Assembly: GCF_030852425.1 (NCBI RefSeq)
Contig: NZ_NSDM01000008.1
Coordinates: 186,001-250,000 of the forward strand
Origin: Saccharothrix longispora
Lineage (GTDB): Bacteria > Actinomycetota > Actinomycetes > Mycobacteriales > Pseudonocardiaceae
Direction: 5' to 3'
Length of the DNA: 64,000 nucleotides
Part shown: piece after piece, positions 2,586 to 10,332 of the stretch
How positions within the stretch are numbered: position 1 is the first letter of the stretch
How the letters are laid out: every line of letters begins with the position of its first letter
Notes under the pieces: model-generated
What the model saw: only the letters and a program-made list of their open reading frames with translations
The model's database searches: none
Told to the model about the DNA's origin: nothing
Translations under genes and position numbers: made by a program

Positions 2586-2615
2586 TTGGTATGCGCGGGA
2601 GGGGTGTGGCACCAT
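2586..2615 (+). promoter_or_regulatory. Predicted promoter of the cimA leader (TTGGTA-N18-CACCAT)
   Basis: TTGGTA at 2586-2591 and CACCAT at 2610-2615 are 18 nt apart. The -10 box keeps A at position 2 and T at position 6 and ends exactly 7 nt before the GTG of the leader peptide, so the leader would be translated from the very 5' end of the mRNA. The cysteine dioxygenase leader at 21698 has the same geometry. Inferred from sequence only. Confidence 0.5.
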
Positions 2616-2622
2616 TCCGGAC

Positions 2623-2667
2623 GTGGCTCTCCACGCCGTGATCATTATCGCCCAGCGCGCCGGGTAG
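2623..2667 (+). CDS. Leader peptide with three consecutive Ile codons (cimA attenuator)
   Basis: GTG 2623 to TAG 2665 encodes a 14-residue peptide, MALHAVIIIAQRAG, with three Ile codons in a row (ATC ATT ATC, 2641-2649) after a Val codon. Its stop codon is inside a long hairpin, and an intrinsic terminator follows before the Shine-Dalgarno of cimA, whose product starts isoleucine synthesis. This is the layout of ribosome-mediated attenuation. No Shine-Dalgarno precedes GTG 2623; leaderless initiation is the likely mode. The frame extends further 5' without a convincing start, so the first codon is inferred. Confidence 0.6.
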   Translation: MALHAVIIIAQRAG

Positions 2668-2692
2668 TGCTCCTGAGAAGCACCCGGCGCGC
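2655..2692 (+). promoter_or_regulatory. Pause-type hairpin overlapping the leader stop codon
   Basis: GCGCGCCGGGT at 2655-2665 pairs perfectly with ACCCGGCGCGC at 2682-2692. An inner alternative pairs GTGCT (2667-2671) with AGCAC (2679-2683), giving one long stem with a small bulge. A ribosome finishing the leader peptide would cover the 5' arm. Confidence 0.6.
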
Positions 2693-2693
2693 C

Positions 2694-2728
2694 GACCTCC
2701 CGCATCCTGCGGGGGGTCTTTTTGTTTT
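2694..2728 (+). terminator. Intrinsic terminator of the cimA attenuator
   Basis: GACCTCCCGCA at 2694-2704 pairs with TGCGGGGGGTC at 2708-2718 (11 bp, one G-U, loop TCC), followed at once by TTTTTGTTTT. It ends 12 nt before the cimA Shine-Dalgarno and 24 nt before its GTG, so it can only serve to stop transcription entering cimA. A T-tract this long is conspicuous in such GC-rich DNA. Confidence 0.8.
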
Positions 2729-2752
2729 CCGAGATCCCCAAGGAGACCTCTC

Positions 2753-4366
2753 GTGACCCCCCTCGGCGATTCCTTCCACGTCTACGACACGACCCTGCGC
2801 GACGGTGCCCAGCGCGAGGGCATCACCTACTCGGTCACCGACAAGCTGGCCGTGGCGCGGCTGCTCGACTCGCTGGGCGTGGGGTTCGTGGAGGGCGGCT
2901 GGCCGGGCGCGCTGCCGAAGGACACCGAGTTCTTCGCCCGCGCCGCCGCGGGGGACCTGACGCTCAAGCACGCGCAGCTCGTCGCGTTCGGCTCCACCCG
3001 CAAGGCGGGCGTCCGGGTCGAGCAGGACGCCCAGGTCAGGGCACTGCTGGACAGCCGGGCGCCGGTCGTGACGCTGGTCGCCAAGTCCGACCGCAGGCAC
3101 ATCGAGAAGGCCCTGCGGACCGACGTCGCGGAGAACTGCGCGATGGTGCGCGACACCGTGCGCTTCCTCGTCGACGAGGGCCGCCGCGTGTTCCTCGACG
3201 CCGAGCACTTCTTCGACGGCTTCGCGTTCGACCCGGACACCTCGCTGCGCGTGCTGGAGTCCGCGGCGGAGGGCGGCGCGGACGTCGTCGTGCTGTGCGA
3301 CACCAACGGCGGGCAGCTGCCCCTGGGGCTCGCCGAGACCGTCGCCGACGTGGTGGCCCGCACGGGCTTCCGGGTCGGCATCCACTGCCAGGACGACACG
3401 TCCTGCGCCGTGGCCAACACCCTCGCCGCGGTGCAGGCGGGCGCGACCCACGTCCAGTGCACCGCGAACGGCTACGGCGAGCGGGCGGGCAACGCCGACC
3501 TGTTCGCCGTGGTGGGGAACCTCGTGACCAAGCTCGGCCTCCAGGTGCTGCCGCACGAGTCGCTGGCCGAGCTGACCCGCGTGTCCCACGCCCTCGCCGA
3601 GATCGCGAACATCGCACCCGACACCCACCAGGCCTACGTCGGGTCGTCGGCCTTCGCCCACAAGGCGGGGCTGCACGCGAGCGCGATCAAGGTCGACCCG
3701 GAGCTGTACAACCACATCGACCCGGGGACCGTCGGCAACGACATGCGGGTGCTGGTCACCGAGATGGCGGGCCGGGCCAGCCTCGAGCTCAAGGGGCGCG
3801 AGTTCGGGATCGACCTGGCCCGCCGGCCCGACGCGCTGACGAACGCGGTGCGCCGGGTGAAGGAATTGGAGGCGGGCGGCTGGTCGTTCGAGGCCGCCGA
3901 CGCCTCCCTGGAGCTGCTCATGCGCGACGAGCTGTCCGAACTGGACGCGCCGCCGTTCCGGCTGGAGTCCTACCGGGTCGTGCTGGACCACCAGCAGGAC
4001 GGCACGATCGTGTCCGAGGCCACGGTCAAGGTGCACGTCGCGGGGGAGCGGGTCATCGCCACCGCCGAGGGCAACGGCCCGGTGCACGCGCTGGACGCCG
4101 CCCTGCGGAAGGCGCTGCTGCCCCACCTGTCCTGGTTGGACGCCGTGGAGCTGAACGACTACAAGGTCCGCATCCTGCCCGGGACCCGGCAGAACCCGGC
4201 CGAGCACGGCACCGACGCCGTCACCCGCGTGCTGGTGGAGTCCACCGACGGCGAGCGCGAGTGGACCACCGTGGGCGTGCACGGCAACATCGTCGAGGCG
4301 AGCTGGCTGGCCTTGTGCGACGCGCTCGCGCACAAGGCCATGCGGGTCAGCCCGTCACCGGCCTGA
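2753..4366 (+). CDS. cimA: (R)-citramalate synthase CimA
   Basis: Condenses pyruvate and acetyl-CoA to (R)-citramalate, the entry to threonine-independent isoleucine synthesis, whose later steps use the LeuCD/LeuB-type enzymes. The 537-residue product has the HMG-CoA lyase-like catalytic signature DTTLRDGAQREG (12-23), the GYGERAGNAD segment and HKAGLH (303-308). A C-terminal LeuA-type allosteric domain follows from roughly residue 400. The size and the 'DGAQREGI' variant fit citramalate synthase rather than isopropylmalate synthase. GTG 2753 follows AAGGAG by 7 nt. The upstream Ile-rich attenuator independently supports a role in isoleucine rather than leucine synthesis. Confidence 0.93.
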   Translation: MTPLGDSFHVYDTTLRDGAQREGITYSVTDKLAVARLLDSLGVGFVEGGWPGALPKDTEFFARAAAGDLTLKHAQLVAFGSTRKAGVRVEQDAQVRALLDSRAPVVTLVAKSDRRHIEKALRTDVAENCAMVRDTVRFLVDEGRRVFLDAEHFFDGFAFDPDTSLRVLESAAEGGADVVVLCDTNGGQLPLGLAETVADVVARTGFRVGIHCQDDTSCAVANTLAAVQAGATHVQCTANGYGERAGNADLFAVVGNLVTKLGLQVLPHESLAELTRVSHALAEIANIAPDTHQAYVGSSAFAHKAGLHASAIKVDPELYNHIDPGTVGNDMRVLVTEMAGRASLELKGREFGIDLARRPDALTNAVRRVKELEAGGWSFEAADASLELLMRDELSELDAPPFRLESYRVVLDHQQDGTIVSEATVKVHVAGERVIATAEGNGPVHALDAALRKALLPHLSWLDAVELNDYKVRILPGTRQNPAEHGTDAVTRVLVESTDGEREWTTVGVHGNIVEASWLALCDALAHKAMRVSPSPA

Positions 4367-9960: not shown

Positions 9961-10032
9961 TGGGGTATGGTGTAATTGGCAGCACGACTGATTCTGGTTC
10001 AGTTAGTCTAGGTTCGAGTCCTGGTACCCCAG
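9961..10032 (+). tRNA. tRNA-Gln, anticodon CTG
   Basis: Full cloverleaf: acceptor TGGGGTA pairs with TACCCCA (discriminator G10032), anticodon stem ACTGA/TCAGT encloses TTCTGGT with anticodon CTG, and the T-loop is TTCGAGT. U8 and A14 are at the expected positions. The 3' CCA is not encoded. Reads CAG codons. Confidence 0.95.
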
Positions 10033-10092
10033 CTGCAACGGTGGAAAGAAAGACCTGCTAGACTACCGGAGCAACAGAGCAAGACCCCGGAT

Positions 10093-10122
10093 TTGGTGAG
10101 AGCCTCCCGGATCTGATAAACT
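10093..10122 (+). promoter_or_regulatory. Predicted promoter of tRNA-Glu (TTGGTG-N18-TAAACT)
   Basis: TTGGTG at 10093-10098 and TAAACT at 10117-10122 are 18 nt apart, in an unusually AT-rich patch between the two tRNA genes. A start near 10130 would give a short 5' leader before tRNA-Glu. Confidence 0.5.
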
Positions 10123-10143
10123 GAATATAACGGAAGTTCCCAG

Positions 10144-10216
10144 GGCCCCGTCGTCTAGCGGCCTAGGACGCCGCCCTCTCAAGGCGGTAGCGAGGGTTCG
10201 AATCCCTTCGGGGCTA
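10144..10216 (+). tRNA. tRNA-Glu, anticodon CTC
   Basis: The anticodon stem CCGCC/GGCGG encloses CTCTCAA with anticodon CTC (reads GAG). The 5' end is set at G10144, because this puts U8 and A14 in their conserved places and gives a 7-bp acceptor with one G-U end pair and discriminator A10216. CCA is not encoded. Confidence 0.94.
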
Positions 10217-10219
10217 CAC

Positions 10220-10258
10220 GGAAATCCCCCCACCCCATCGCGGGTGGGGGGATTTTCC
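10220..10258 (+). terminator. Strong terminator after tRNA-Glu
   Basis: A near-perfect 16-bp stem (arms 10220-10235 and 10242-10258) starts 4 nt after the tRNA. The C6/G6 core plus AAAT/ATTT ends give a T-run after the stem, so it works on the plus strand. Confidence 0.85.
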
Positions 10259-10332
10259 TTGTGTGCCGACCGCCCTCCGGGAGCCCGTGGCGCCCCACCG
10301 GGTGATGAGGGCGCCACGGGCTCCTGCGGTGC

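Follow-up and report, generated by a model that had tools for sequence, protein, structure and literature searches.

In the ilvB1NC attenuator of Mycobacterium tuberculosis, as set out in the available part of the report, the operon is controlled by a translated upstream open reading frame (uORF) encoding LVVI and by an RNA that terminates after about 120 nt; with AAAA in place of LVVI the IlvB1 inhibitor no longer induced it, and disrupting the terminator mitigated collateral vulnerability (PMC13236596). The leader described here, which precedes the citramalate synthase gene cimA of Saccharothrix longispora, resembles this system in having a uORF with branched-chain amino-acid codons, a hairpin that would be opened by a ribosome at the stop codon and an intrinsic terminator, but differs from it in the gene downstream and in that the two structures of the ilvB1 report are, in the part available, mutually exclusive, whereas the two hairpins before cimA (P1 and P2) abut. 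By analogy, the ilvB1 leader lends the cimA leader its strongest functional support.

The ilvL leader of Streptomyces lividans and S. coelicolor, which encodes MRTRILVLGKRVG, likewise combines a leaderless uORF, branched-chain codons and a U-tract terminator (excerpts of PMC8079986 and PMC1262725); unlike the cimA leader it has mixed Ile, Leu and Val codons and lies before ilvB, and its mode of regulation was called unclear (excerpt of PMC1262725). The leuL2/leuS attenuator of Streptomyces shares with the cimA leader a uORF, here with Leu codons, and a hairpin followed closely by a terminator (excerpts of PMC1262725 and PMC8079986; found here at L223, L237 and other loci), but its codons are for leucine and its gene encodes a tRNA synthetase. 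The LEU element of leuA, in which Leu codons form a pseudoknot with the Shine-Dalgarno sequence of that gene (PMC1262725), differs from the cimA leader in both gene and codons. In the ilvB-II motif of Corynebacterium a uORF also runs over P1 and the terminator is P2, but a pairing of the P1 loop with P2 was proposed there as antiterminator (available part of PMC10272879), for which we found no support in the cimA leaders. Finally, in the pyrL (pyrBI) attenuator of Escherichia coli, proximity of the ribosome to RNA polymerase blocks folding of the terminator, as might happen here, but there UTP is sensed via pausing and, in the part of the source available, no hairpin shortens the distance (PMC10135430).

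Among the papers listed by a full-text literature search, with most subscription journals outside its coverage, there was no description of a cimA attenuator, in keeping with the first-pass annotation of this DNA, which had known of none in actinobacteria. For SCO5529, which we take to be the cimA of S. coelicolor, the literature found deals with lowered expression only. The excerpted PMC1262725 covers trp, trpS, leuS, ilvB, cys, leuA and ileS attenuators, leaders or elements and does not mention cimA, and none of the eight leader peptides reported for S. lividans precedes cimA in the available part of PMC8079986. The gene is also absent from the main text of PMC3223726 as available, neither citramalate nor cimA occurs in PMC2965389, and in the excerpt of PMC12452182 citramalate synthases appear only in the annotation of a Bacillota T-box gene. 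The sensing part of the switch proposed below is known; for its cimA target and its non-overlapping design we found neither described.

A compact leader between leuB and cimA

In the window, by which we mean the whole 64,000-nt stretch of DNA analysed, leuB (3-isopropylmalate dehydrogenase; 1419-2462, profile NF002898) is followed by cimA (2753-4366, forward strand), whose 537-aa product, citramalate synthase, scores 594.1 bits against TIGR00977 (cut-off 450) and starts at the GTG at 2753, and a compact leader lies in the interval between the two genes. On the forward strand this leader comprises a uORF of 14 codons plus TAG, VALHAVIIIAQRAG (2623-2667, GTG start, TAG at 2665-2667), whose putatively regulatory isoleucine codons ATC ATT ATC (2641-2649) stand at -14, -11 and -8 relative to P1; the hairpin P1, GCGCGCCGG.../...CCGGCGCGC (2655-2692), located by folding and holding the uORF stop; a single-base spacer (2693); the terminator hairpin P2 (2694-2718), located by folding and by a terminator scan; the U-tract TTTTTGTTTT (2719-2728), which is conserved in the alignment described below; and the cimA Shine-Dalgarno sequence AAGGAG (2740-2745). 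The first-pass annotation had claimed a 14-codon ORF with three Ile codons, a stop within a hairpin and a T-tract terminator ahead of the Shine-Dalgarno sequence, all of which are in place, and its remark that the two hairpins abut without overlapping is correct and proves to be the key feature of the leader.

The stretch 2600-2728 folds at -68.3 kcal/mol, where 200 shuffles average -50.5 kcal/mol and none is as low (z = -4.4), and the terminator scan of 2400-2800 reported one site where shuffles gave a mean of 0.1. Two marks of an attenuator are present, a short uORF that encodes the end-product amino acid and, judged from sequence only, an intrinsic terminator between the uORF and cimA; a third, an antiterminator sharing bases with the terminator, was not found by computation, P1 and P2 having no base in common. 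No cis-regulatory Rfam family, T-box and riboswitches included, reached its gathering threshold in the whole window, in which only two tRNAs did so, and a permissive scan of 2400-2800 gave only weak matches, far under the thresholds.

Conservation of the leader before cimA

The CimA of the window, used as query, found a match in 198 of 199 genomes, some of these being weak paralogue matches, and from among the matches listed we chose 110 cimA upstream regions, one per genome (L001-L030, which include that of the window, and L031-L110). The leader is present in 105 of the 110, with 21 to 145 nt from the start of the U-tract to the start of the matched cimA, and the leaderless regions (L099, L100, L103, L106 and L107) are all five of those taken from families f3 and f4. 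Our alignment A1 holds 102 of the 105 leaders, L036, L094 and L109 having been dropped when no start codon was picked for them. The uORFs of these 102 begin with GTG in 63 and ATG in 39, and isoleucine is encoded at the places of codons 2641, 2644 and 2647 in 81, 100 and 95 of them, respectively, the two exceptions at 2644 being Val in L096 and Leu in L101. Variation in the Ile codons falls mainly on the third base, base 2649 being T in 53 rows and C in 49; together with the in-frame start codons described below, this pattern suggests that the uORF is translated.

A search with a strict leader pattern returned 86 stretches, and among the 80 listed all but three carry names of Pseudonocardiales or of genera of the Pseudonocardiaceae; the three exceptions among those listed are a Nocardia sp. 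and two metagenome-assembled genomes whose titles read Actinomycetes or Actinobacteria bacterium. The covariance model R1, built from A1, reaches further: in a class-wide sample of 394 genomes it has matches in 245, and in 106 of 138 genera. At the 59 loci L111-L169, CimA was found by tblastn in 44, among them L155 with no more than 35 residues where its contig ends; the CimA homologue at L154 (31.5% identical) is LeuA, and the remaining 14 of the 59 are without a CimA match. Of 98 genomes in a further draw from the class, 75 have CimA at E ≤ 1e-60, and in 57 of these an R1 match lies 12-211 nt upstream of cimA (limit 400 nt), while the 18 without a match near cimA may partly reflect stricter filters. 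In the same analysis 49 of 106 R1 matches lie elsewhere than near cimA, and seven genomes have R1 matches but no CimA.

The DNA upstream of several leaderless f3 and f4 cimA genes resembled, by eye only, the end of leuB, and cimA may there have joined a leuB unit and lost the switch. Leaders before ilvB are present in three genomes whose cimA is leaderless (L246-L248).

Covariation and fixed spacing of the two hairpins

RNAalifold returned exactly P1 and P2 from A1. On its 100 distinct rows 99.0% of the cells pair, a share that drops to 41-58% when the 3' partner is slid by one to three columns, and both partners have changed in nine of the 19 pairs, against a mean of 2.3 after shuffling and with 0 of 500 shuffles reaching as many. 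Such two-sided change is seen in five of the nine lower pairs of P1 and in four of the ten pairs of P2. The bottom four pairs of P1 are GC in all 100 distinct rows; the 5' arm of P2 and the base of P1 are more constant than pairing alone requires. Taken with its occurrence in 105 of 110 cimA upstream regions, two-sided change in nine of 19 pairs indicates that the leader is more than a product of chance. The first-pass annotation had proposed aligning the upstream DNA of relatives, in which a conserved Ile-run uORF and a terminator with compensatory changes would speak for an attenuator, and the alignment holds both.

Two distances within the leader are fixed. From codon 2644 to the first base of P1 there are 11 nt, ungapped, in 102 of 102 aligned leaders, and in the alignment a single base separates P1 from P2 in 102 of 102, the first base of P2 being absent from three rows. 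The length of P1 varies from 25 to 50 nt in A1 and from 22 to 71 nt at class level, the latter range leaving out L132, whose fold length, like that of L096, is a misparse that took in the uORF. A form with a long P1 occurs at L146 and L148, whose genus we take to be Streptomyces. The uORF stop codon begins 10 nt within P1 (92 rows) or 2 nt ahead of it (10 rows); P1 averages 37.7 nt in the first group and 29.3 nt in the second, while the path from ribosome to polymerase with the ribosome at the stop (see below) averages 37.7 and 41.3 nt. These means are suggestive of a P1 length that offsets the position of the stop and keeps the path similar, a relation that may simply follow ancestry.

In individual folds the gap between the hairpins is 0-2 nt in 104 of 105 cimA leaders, 38 of 38 class-level cimA leaders (L114-L149, L152 and L153) and 48 of 50 ilvB leaders (see below). 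Abutment on its own was rejected as a statistic, since shuffled upstream sequence leaves no more than 2 nt between the hairpins in 623 of 1020 folds (61%). Because abutting hairpins are so common in GC-rich shuffles, we place the weight on the invariance of the spacing, bearing in mind that related sequences are not independent. Sets of other terminators, in which the gap was 0-2 nt in 66 of 69 folds and in 18 of the 25 parsed among 40 'other' sites, proved to be contaminated and were set aside as controls; at least six of the 40 (L061, L096, L101, L104, L159 and L169) are true leaders.

Within P2, the pairs 2698/2714 and 2700/2712 (A1 columns 112/132 and 114/130) are U-G wobbles in most leaders, where C-G would be stronger; their 5' side is mostly U, the window having C at 2700. 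The terminator is possibly kept at moderate strength by these wobbles.

A promoter-like site ahead of the uORF

An extended -10-like element, TGTGGCACCAT (2605-2615, forward strand; hexamer CACCAT at 2610-2615), precedes the uORF and is conserved, and a -35-like hexamer, TTGGTA (2586-2591, forward strand), lies 18 nt upstream of the -10-like hexamer, TTGG being frequent at that place in relatives when judged by eye. A sigma-70 scan of 2400-2800 reported no promoter. Since the first procedure for picking start codons was scored partly on the very -10 spacing that it reports (6-7 nt in 99 of 102), it was repeated blind, with the -10-like motif placed without regard to the start codon, and 102 of 105 leaders could be anchored in this way. 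ATG or GTG follows the blindly placed motif by 6-7 nt in 86 of the 102 anchored leaders, in frame with the Ile codons in 86 of 86; overall the starts are in frame in 94 of 102, and 16 leaders are exceptions to the 6-7 nt spacing. The codon at -11 belonged to the anchor, which makes the blind test circular for this codon in cimA and ilvB leaders, and the codon counts given above for cimA are instead taken from alignment columns.

Because the -10-like hexamer lies 7 nt upstream, transcription is predicted to start at 2622-2623 (forward strand), at the uORF start codon or one base before it, and the uORF would probably be leaderless. The ilvL, leuL and trpL leaders of Streptomyces have been reported to be so (available part of PMC8079986). 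The first-pass annotation had offered GCGGGAGG (2595-2602) as a possible partner of the terminator arm, provided that transcription starts further upstream, a suggestion that is not supported, as this sequence is upstream of the predicted start and therefore unlikely to be in the RNA; it was rejected as an antiterminator partner because it falls outside the predicted transcript.

The same arrangement before other branched-chain genes

An IlvB search of 119 genomes supplied 50 upstream regions, the best 30 plus 20 chosen (L170-L219, fetched with the L168 protein as query). These ilvB leaders share the layout of the cimA leaders, with Leu, Val and Ile codons, and at the -11 place the codon is GTN in 46 of 50, the other four having other codons. 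In the genome of the window itself ilvB (L200) lies about 10.8 kb upstream of cimA and its uORF begins MQRNLVLVLPRRV. Further loci were labelled ilvB from reading the protein starts (L156-L168, L220, L221, L224, L226, L227 and L238) or confirmed as such by profile (L225 and L228); among them L161 and L163, whose genus we take to be Streptomyces, encode the peptide MRTRILVLGKRVG. Five ilvB leaders fetched from family f8 (L240-L244), a family that we infer to include M. tuberculosis, all have a P1-P2 gap of 0-2 nt, only the gaps of these folds being used, and their uORFs encode LVVI in three of five (L240, L242 and L244), LVVL in one and LVI in one.

Leaders with Leu codons were found before leuS, for which TIGR00396 scored best in L223, L232, L234, L236, L237 and L239, and also in L169, and one was found before leuA (L154, TIGR00973; uORF MTNLLLT). 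In family f32 two leaders, each with a single Ile codon (L229, MTVHEMAIT; L230, MPLFLMVIT), precede the gene for threonine ammonia-lyase (ilvA), the enzyme that opens the alternative route to isoleucine. The genomes of L229 and L230 have no leader match near their cimA; the isoleucine switch may have moved between the entry enzymes in this family. The leuS, ilvA and ilvB profile matches were obtained on cut-off ORFs and lie under the full-length cut-offs, so the best-scoring family is named, and in the ilvA, leuA and leuS leaders the scaffold was read by eye only. L231 matched no family at 1e-60 and was left out of the ilvA group, and L233 and L235, which are weak R1 matches and leaderless by eye, look like noise.

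The scaffold consists of codons about 8-14 nt ahead of a GCG-rich P1 that lies 0-2 nt from the terminator, and the cimA leader shares it. As read from these sequences, the identity of the codons fits the downstream enzyme, with Ile before cimA and ilvA, Leu, Val and Ile before ilvB, and Leu before leuA and leuS. Exchangeable codons on one scaffold across several branched-chain genes amount to a natural codon-swap experiment. The attenuator reading of the first-pass annotation thus gains support from both the comparative test and the fit between codon and enzyme in related leaders, and we estimate a probability of roughly 0.87 that cimA is under ribosome-mediated, isoleucine-responsive transcription attenuation. 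Against this reading stand the leaderless cimA regions of f3 and f4, the 18 CimA-bearing genomes of the class draw with no R1 match near cimA and the negative sigma-70 scan. If it holds, cimA and, in family f32, ilvA join the genes that amino-acid attenuation apparently controls, and do so across a large part of a bacterial class.

A switch that may work by distance

In seven combinations of the P2 arms with the P1 arms, the P1 loop and the uORF we found no species-matched alternative pairing: the leader's own partner paired better than partners taken from other species in 12-52 of the 102 leaders, against 96 of 102 for P1 as positive control, and these pairings were rejected. Equilibrium folding gave P2 a mean probability of 0.95-0.96 whether the ribosome was at the Ile codons, at the stop or absent. 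As far as computation shows, the leader would work like an attenuator yet without the textbook overlapping antiterminator. Because P1 and P2 do not overlap and no alternative pairing was found, we examined the distances between ribosome and polymerase.

In the mechanism that we propose, transcription would begin at the GTG at 2623. With ample Ile-tRNA the ribosome would reach the TAG at 2665, its footprint would open the 5' arm of P1, P2 would form and transcription would stop before cimA. In leaders with either stop position a ribosome at the stop would cover this arm. With scarce Ile-tRNA it would be held at 2641-2649. The footprint of a ribosome stalled at 2644 would end at about the base of P1, and with the leading edge at or near this base P1 could fold. 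Folded P1 would loop out RNA, leaving only 21 nt between the P site and the active site of the polymerase if P2 folded as well, and as 21 nt is less than the 28-nt limit discussed below, P2 could not be completed and the polymerase would enter cimA. At the third Ile codon the ribosome would cover the lowest pairs of P1, and the first two codons are expected to matter most; with no ribosome both hairpins could form, making termination the default. Since starvation would let P1 form and sufficiency would open it, P1 would take the part of an antiterminator, a polarity that is the reverse of that of the 1:2 hairpin in trp-type attenuators. It is the same polarity as proposed for ilvB1 (available part of PMC13236596).

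The path lengths assume that the active site is 7 nt past P2. With the ribosome at 2644 and both hairpins folded the path is 21 nt in 102 of 102 leaders, because the 11-nt and 1-nt spacings are fixed, and if P1 alone is folded it lengthens to 44-49 nt. For a ribosome at the stop codon, with only P2 folded, the path measures 31-50 nt (median 38 nt), below 28 nt in none of the leaders and below 37 nt in 26 of 102. As we understand the available part of PMC11711091, a separation of 28 nt leaves no intervening mRNA, ribosome and polymerase often collide once no more than 37 nt separate them and coupled structures extend up to 47 nt, these limits coming from E. coli complexes rather than from actinobacteria. 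The 26 of 102 stop-state paths under the 37-nt collision tendency are a point against the mechanism. In its favour, a coupled ribosome lowers termination at pyrL (excerpt of PMC10135430) and termination hairpins and collided expressomes reportedly exclude each other (excerpt of PMC7858274). The length of P1 would be immaterial to such a mechanism, which fits the wide range of P1 lengths both in A1 and across the class.

We consider it somewhat short of an even bet that a stalled ribosome and a folded P1 together block P2 in this way. Slightly more tentatively, P1 might be a ruler-like antiterminator that acts without competition for bases, one design with swapped codons that would serve cimA, ilvA, ilvB, leuA and leuS across actinobacteria. 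If true, antitermination would here depend on the distance between ribosome and polymerase rather than on alternative pairing, the difficulty of finding overlapping antiterminators in actinobacteria would be explained, and the working of actinobacterial ilv leaders would become directly testable.

Alternative explanations

A base-paired antiterminator may nevertheless be hidden in the leader, for example between the 3' arm of P2 and the loop of P1 as in the Corynebacterium ilvB-II motif; such a pairing was proposed for the ilvB leader of C. ulcerans (available part of PMC10272879; see also the excerpt of PMC11857589). The 3' arm of P2 does pair slightly better with its own P1 loop than with shuffled sequence (-9.8 against -9.0 kcal/mol), and likewise with part of the uORF (-10.5 against -9.7 kcal/mol), but its own partners are hardly distinguishable from those of other species (-9.80 and -9.77 kcal/mol for the loop, -10.47 and -10.58 kcal/mol for the uORF part), and its own pairing matches the energy of the P2 stem in only two (loop) and four (uORF part) of 102 leaders. 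Moreover, the P1 loop ranges in length from 7 to 32 nt while the 3' arm of P2 is nearly constant, which argues against a conserved pairing and also makes the species test less powerful, and with the ribosome at the Ile codons P2 dominates at equilibrium, with a mean probability of 0.96. We regard a hidden antiterminator as unlikely, while still giving it serious weight.

P1 might also act alone, as a steric antiterminator whose helix, abutting the base of P2, is unfit for the exit channel of the polymerase, with the ribosome deciding only whether P1 forms. The 1-nt spacer in 102 of 102 leaders and the GC pairs that never change at the foot of P1 would suit this explanation, but it predicts read-through without any translation and has no need of the fixed 11-nt distance from codon to P1, and we hold it to be distinctly improbable. 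The spacing mechanism makes use of both distances.

It is more doubtful still that the terminator is constitutive and the translated uORF senses nothing, or senses general translation speed. In the available part of PMC1262725, which cites earlier work, replacing codons in the ilvB leader of S. coelicolor was reportedly without effect, but in M. tuberculosis the change from LVVI to AAAA abolished induction of ilvB1 (excerpt of PMC13236596), and codon identity matches the enzyme across cimA, ilvA, ilvB, leuA and leuS. Least credible of all is control of cimA by a riboswitch, a T-box or a protein-binding element with the uORF incidental, for which the conservation of the P1 base and the P2 5' arm beyond the needs of pairing could be cited, but which meets no cis-regulatory Rfam family at threshold in the window and only weak permissive matches at 2400-2800.

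Other terminator-like hairpins in the window

Right behind leuB, at 2478-2524, lies a strong GC hairpin with a weak T stretch, which also gave, on the minus strand, the best sub-threshold Rfam scores of the 2400-2800 region. Transcription of leuB probably ends there, in which case cimA would be transcribed as a unit of its own. Another clear intrinsic terminator is found at 10227-10260, after a pair of tRNA genes at 9961-10216.
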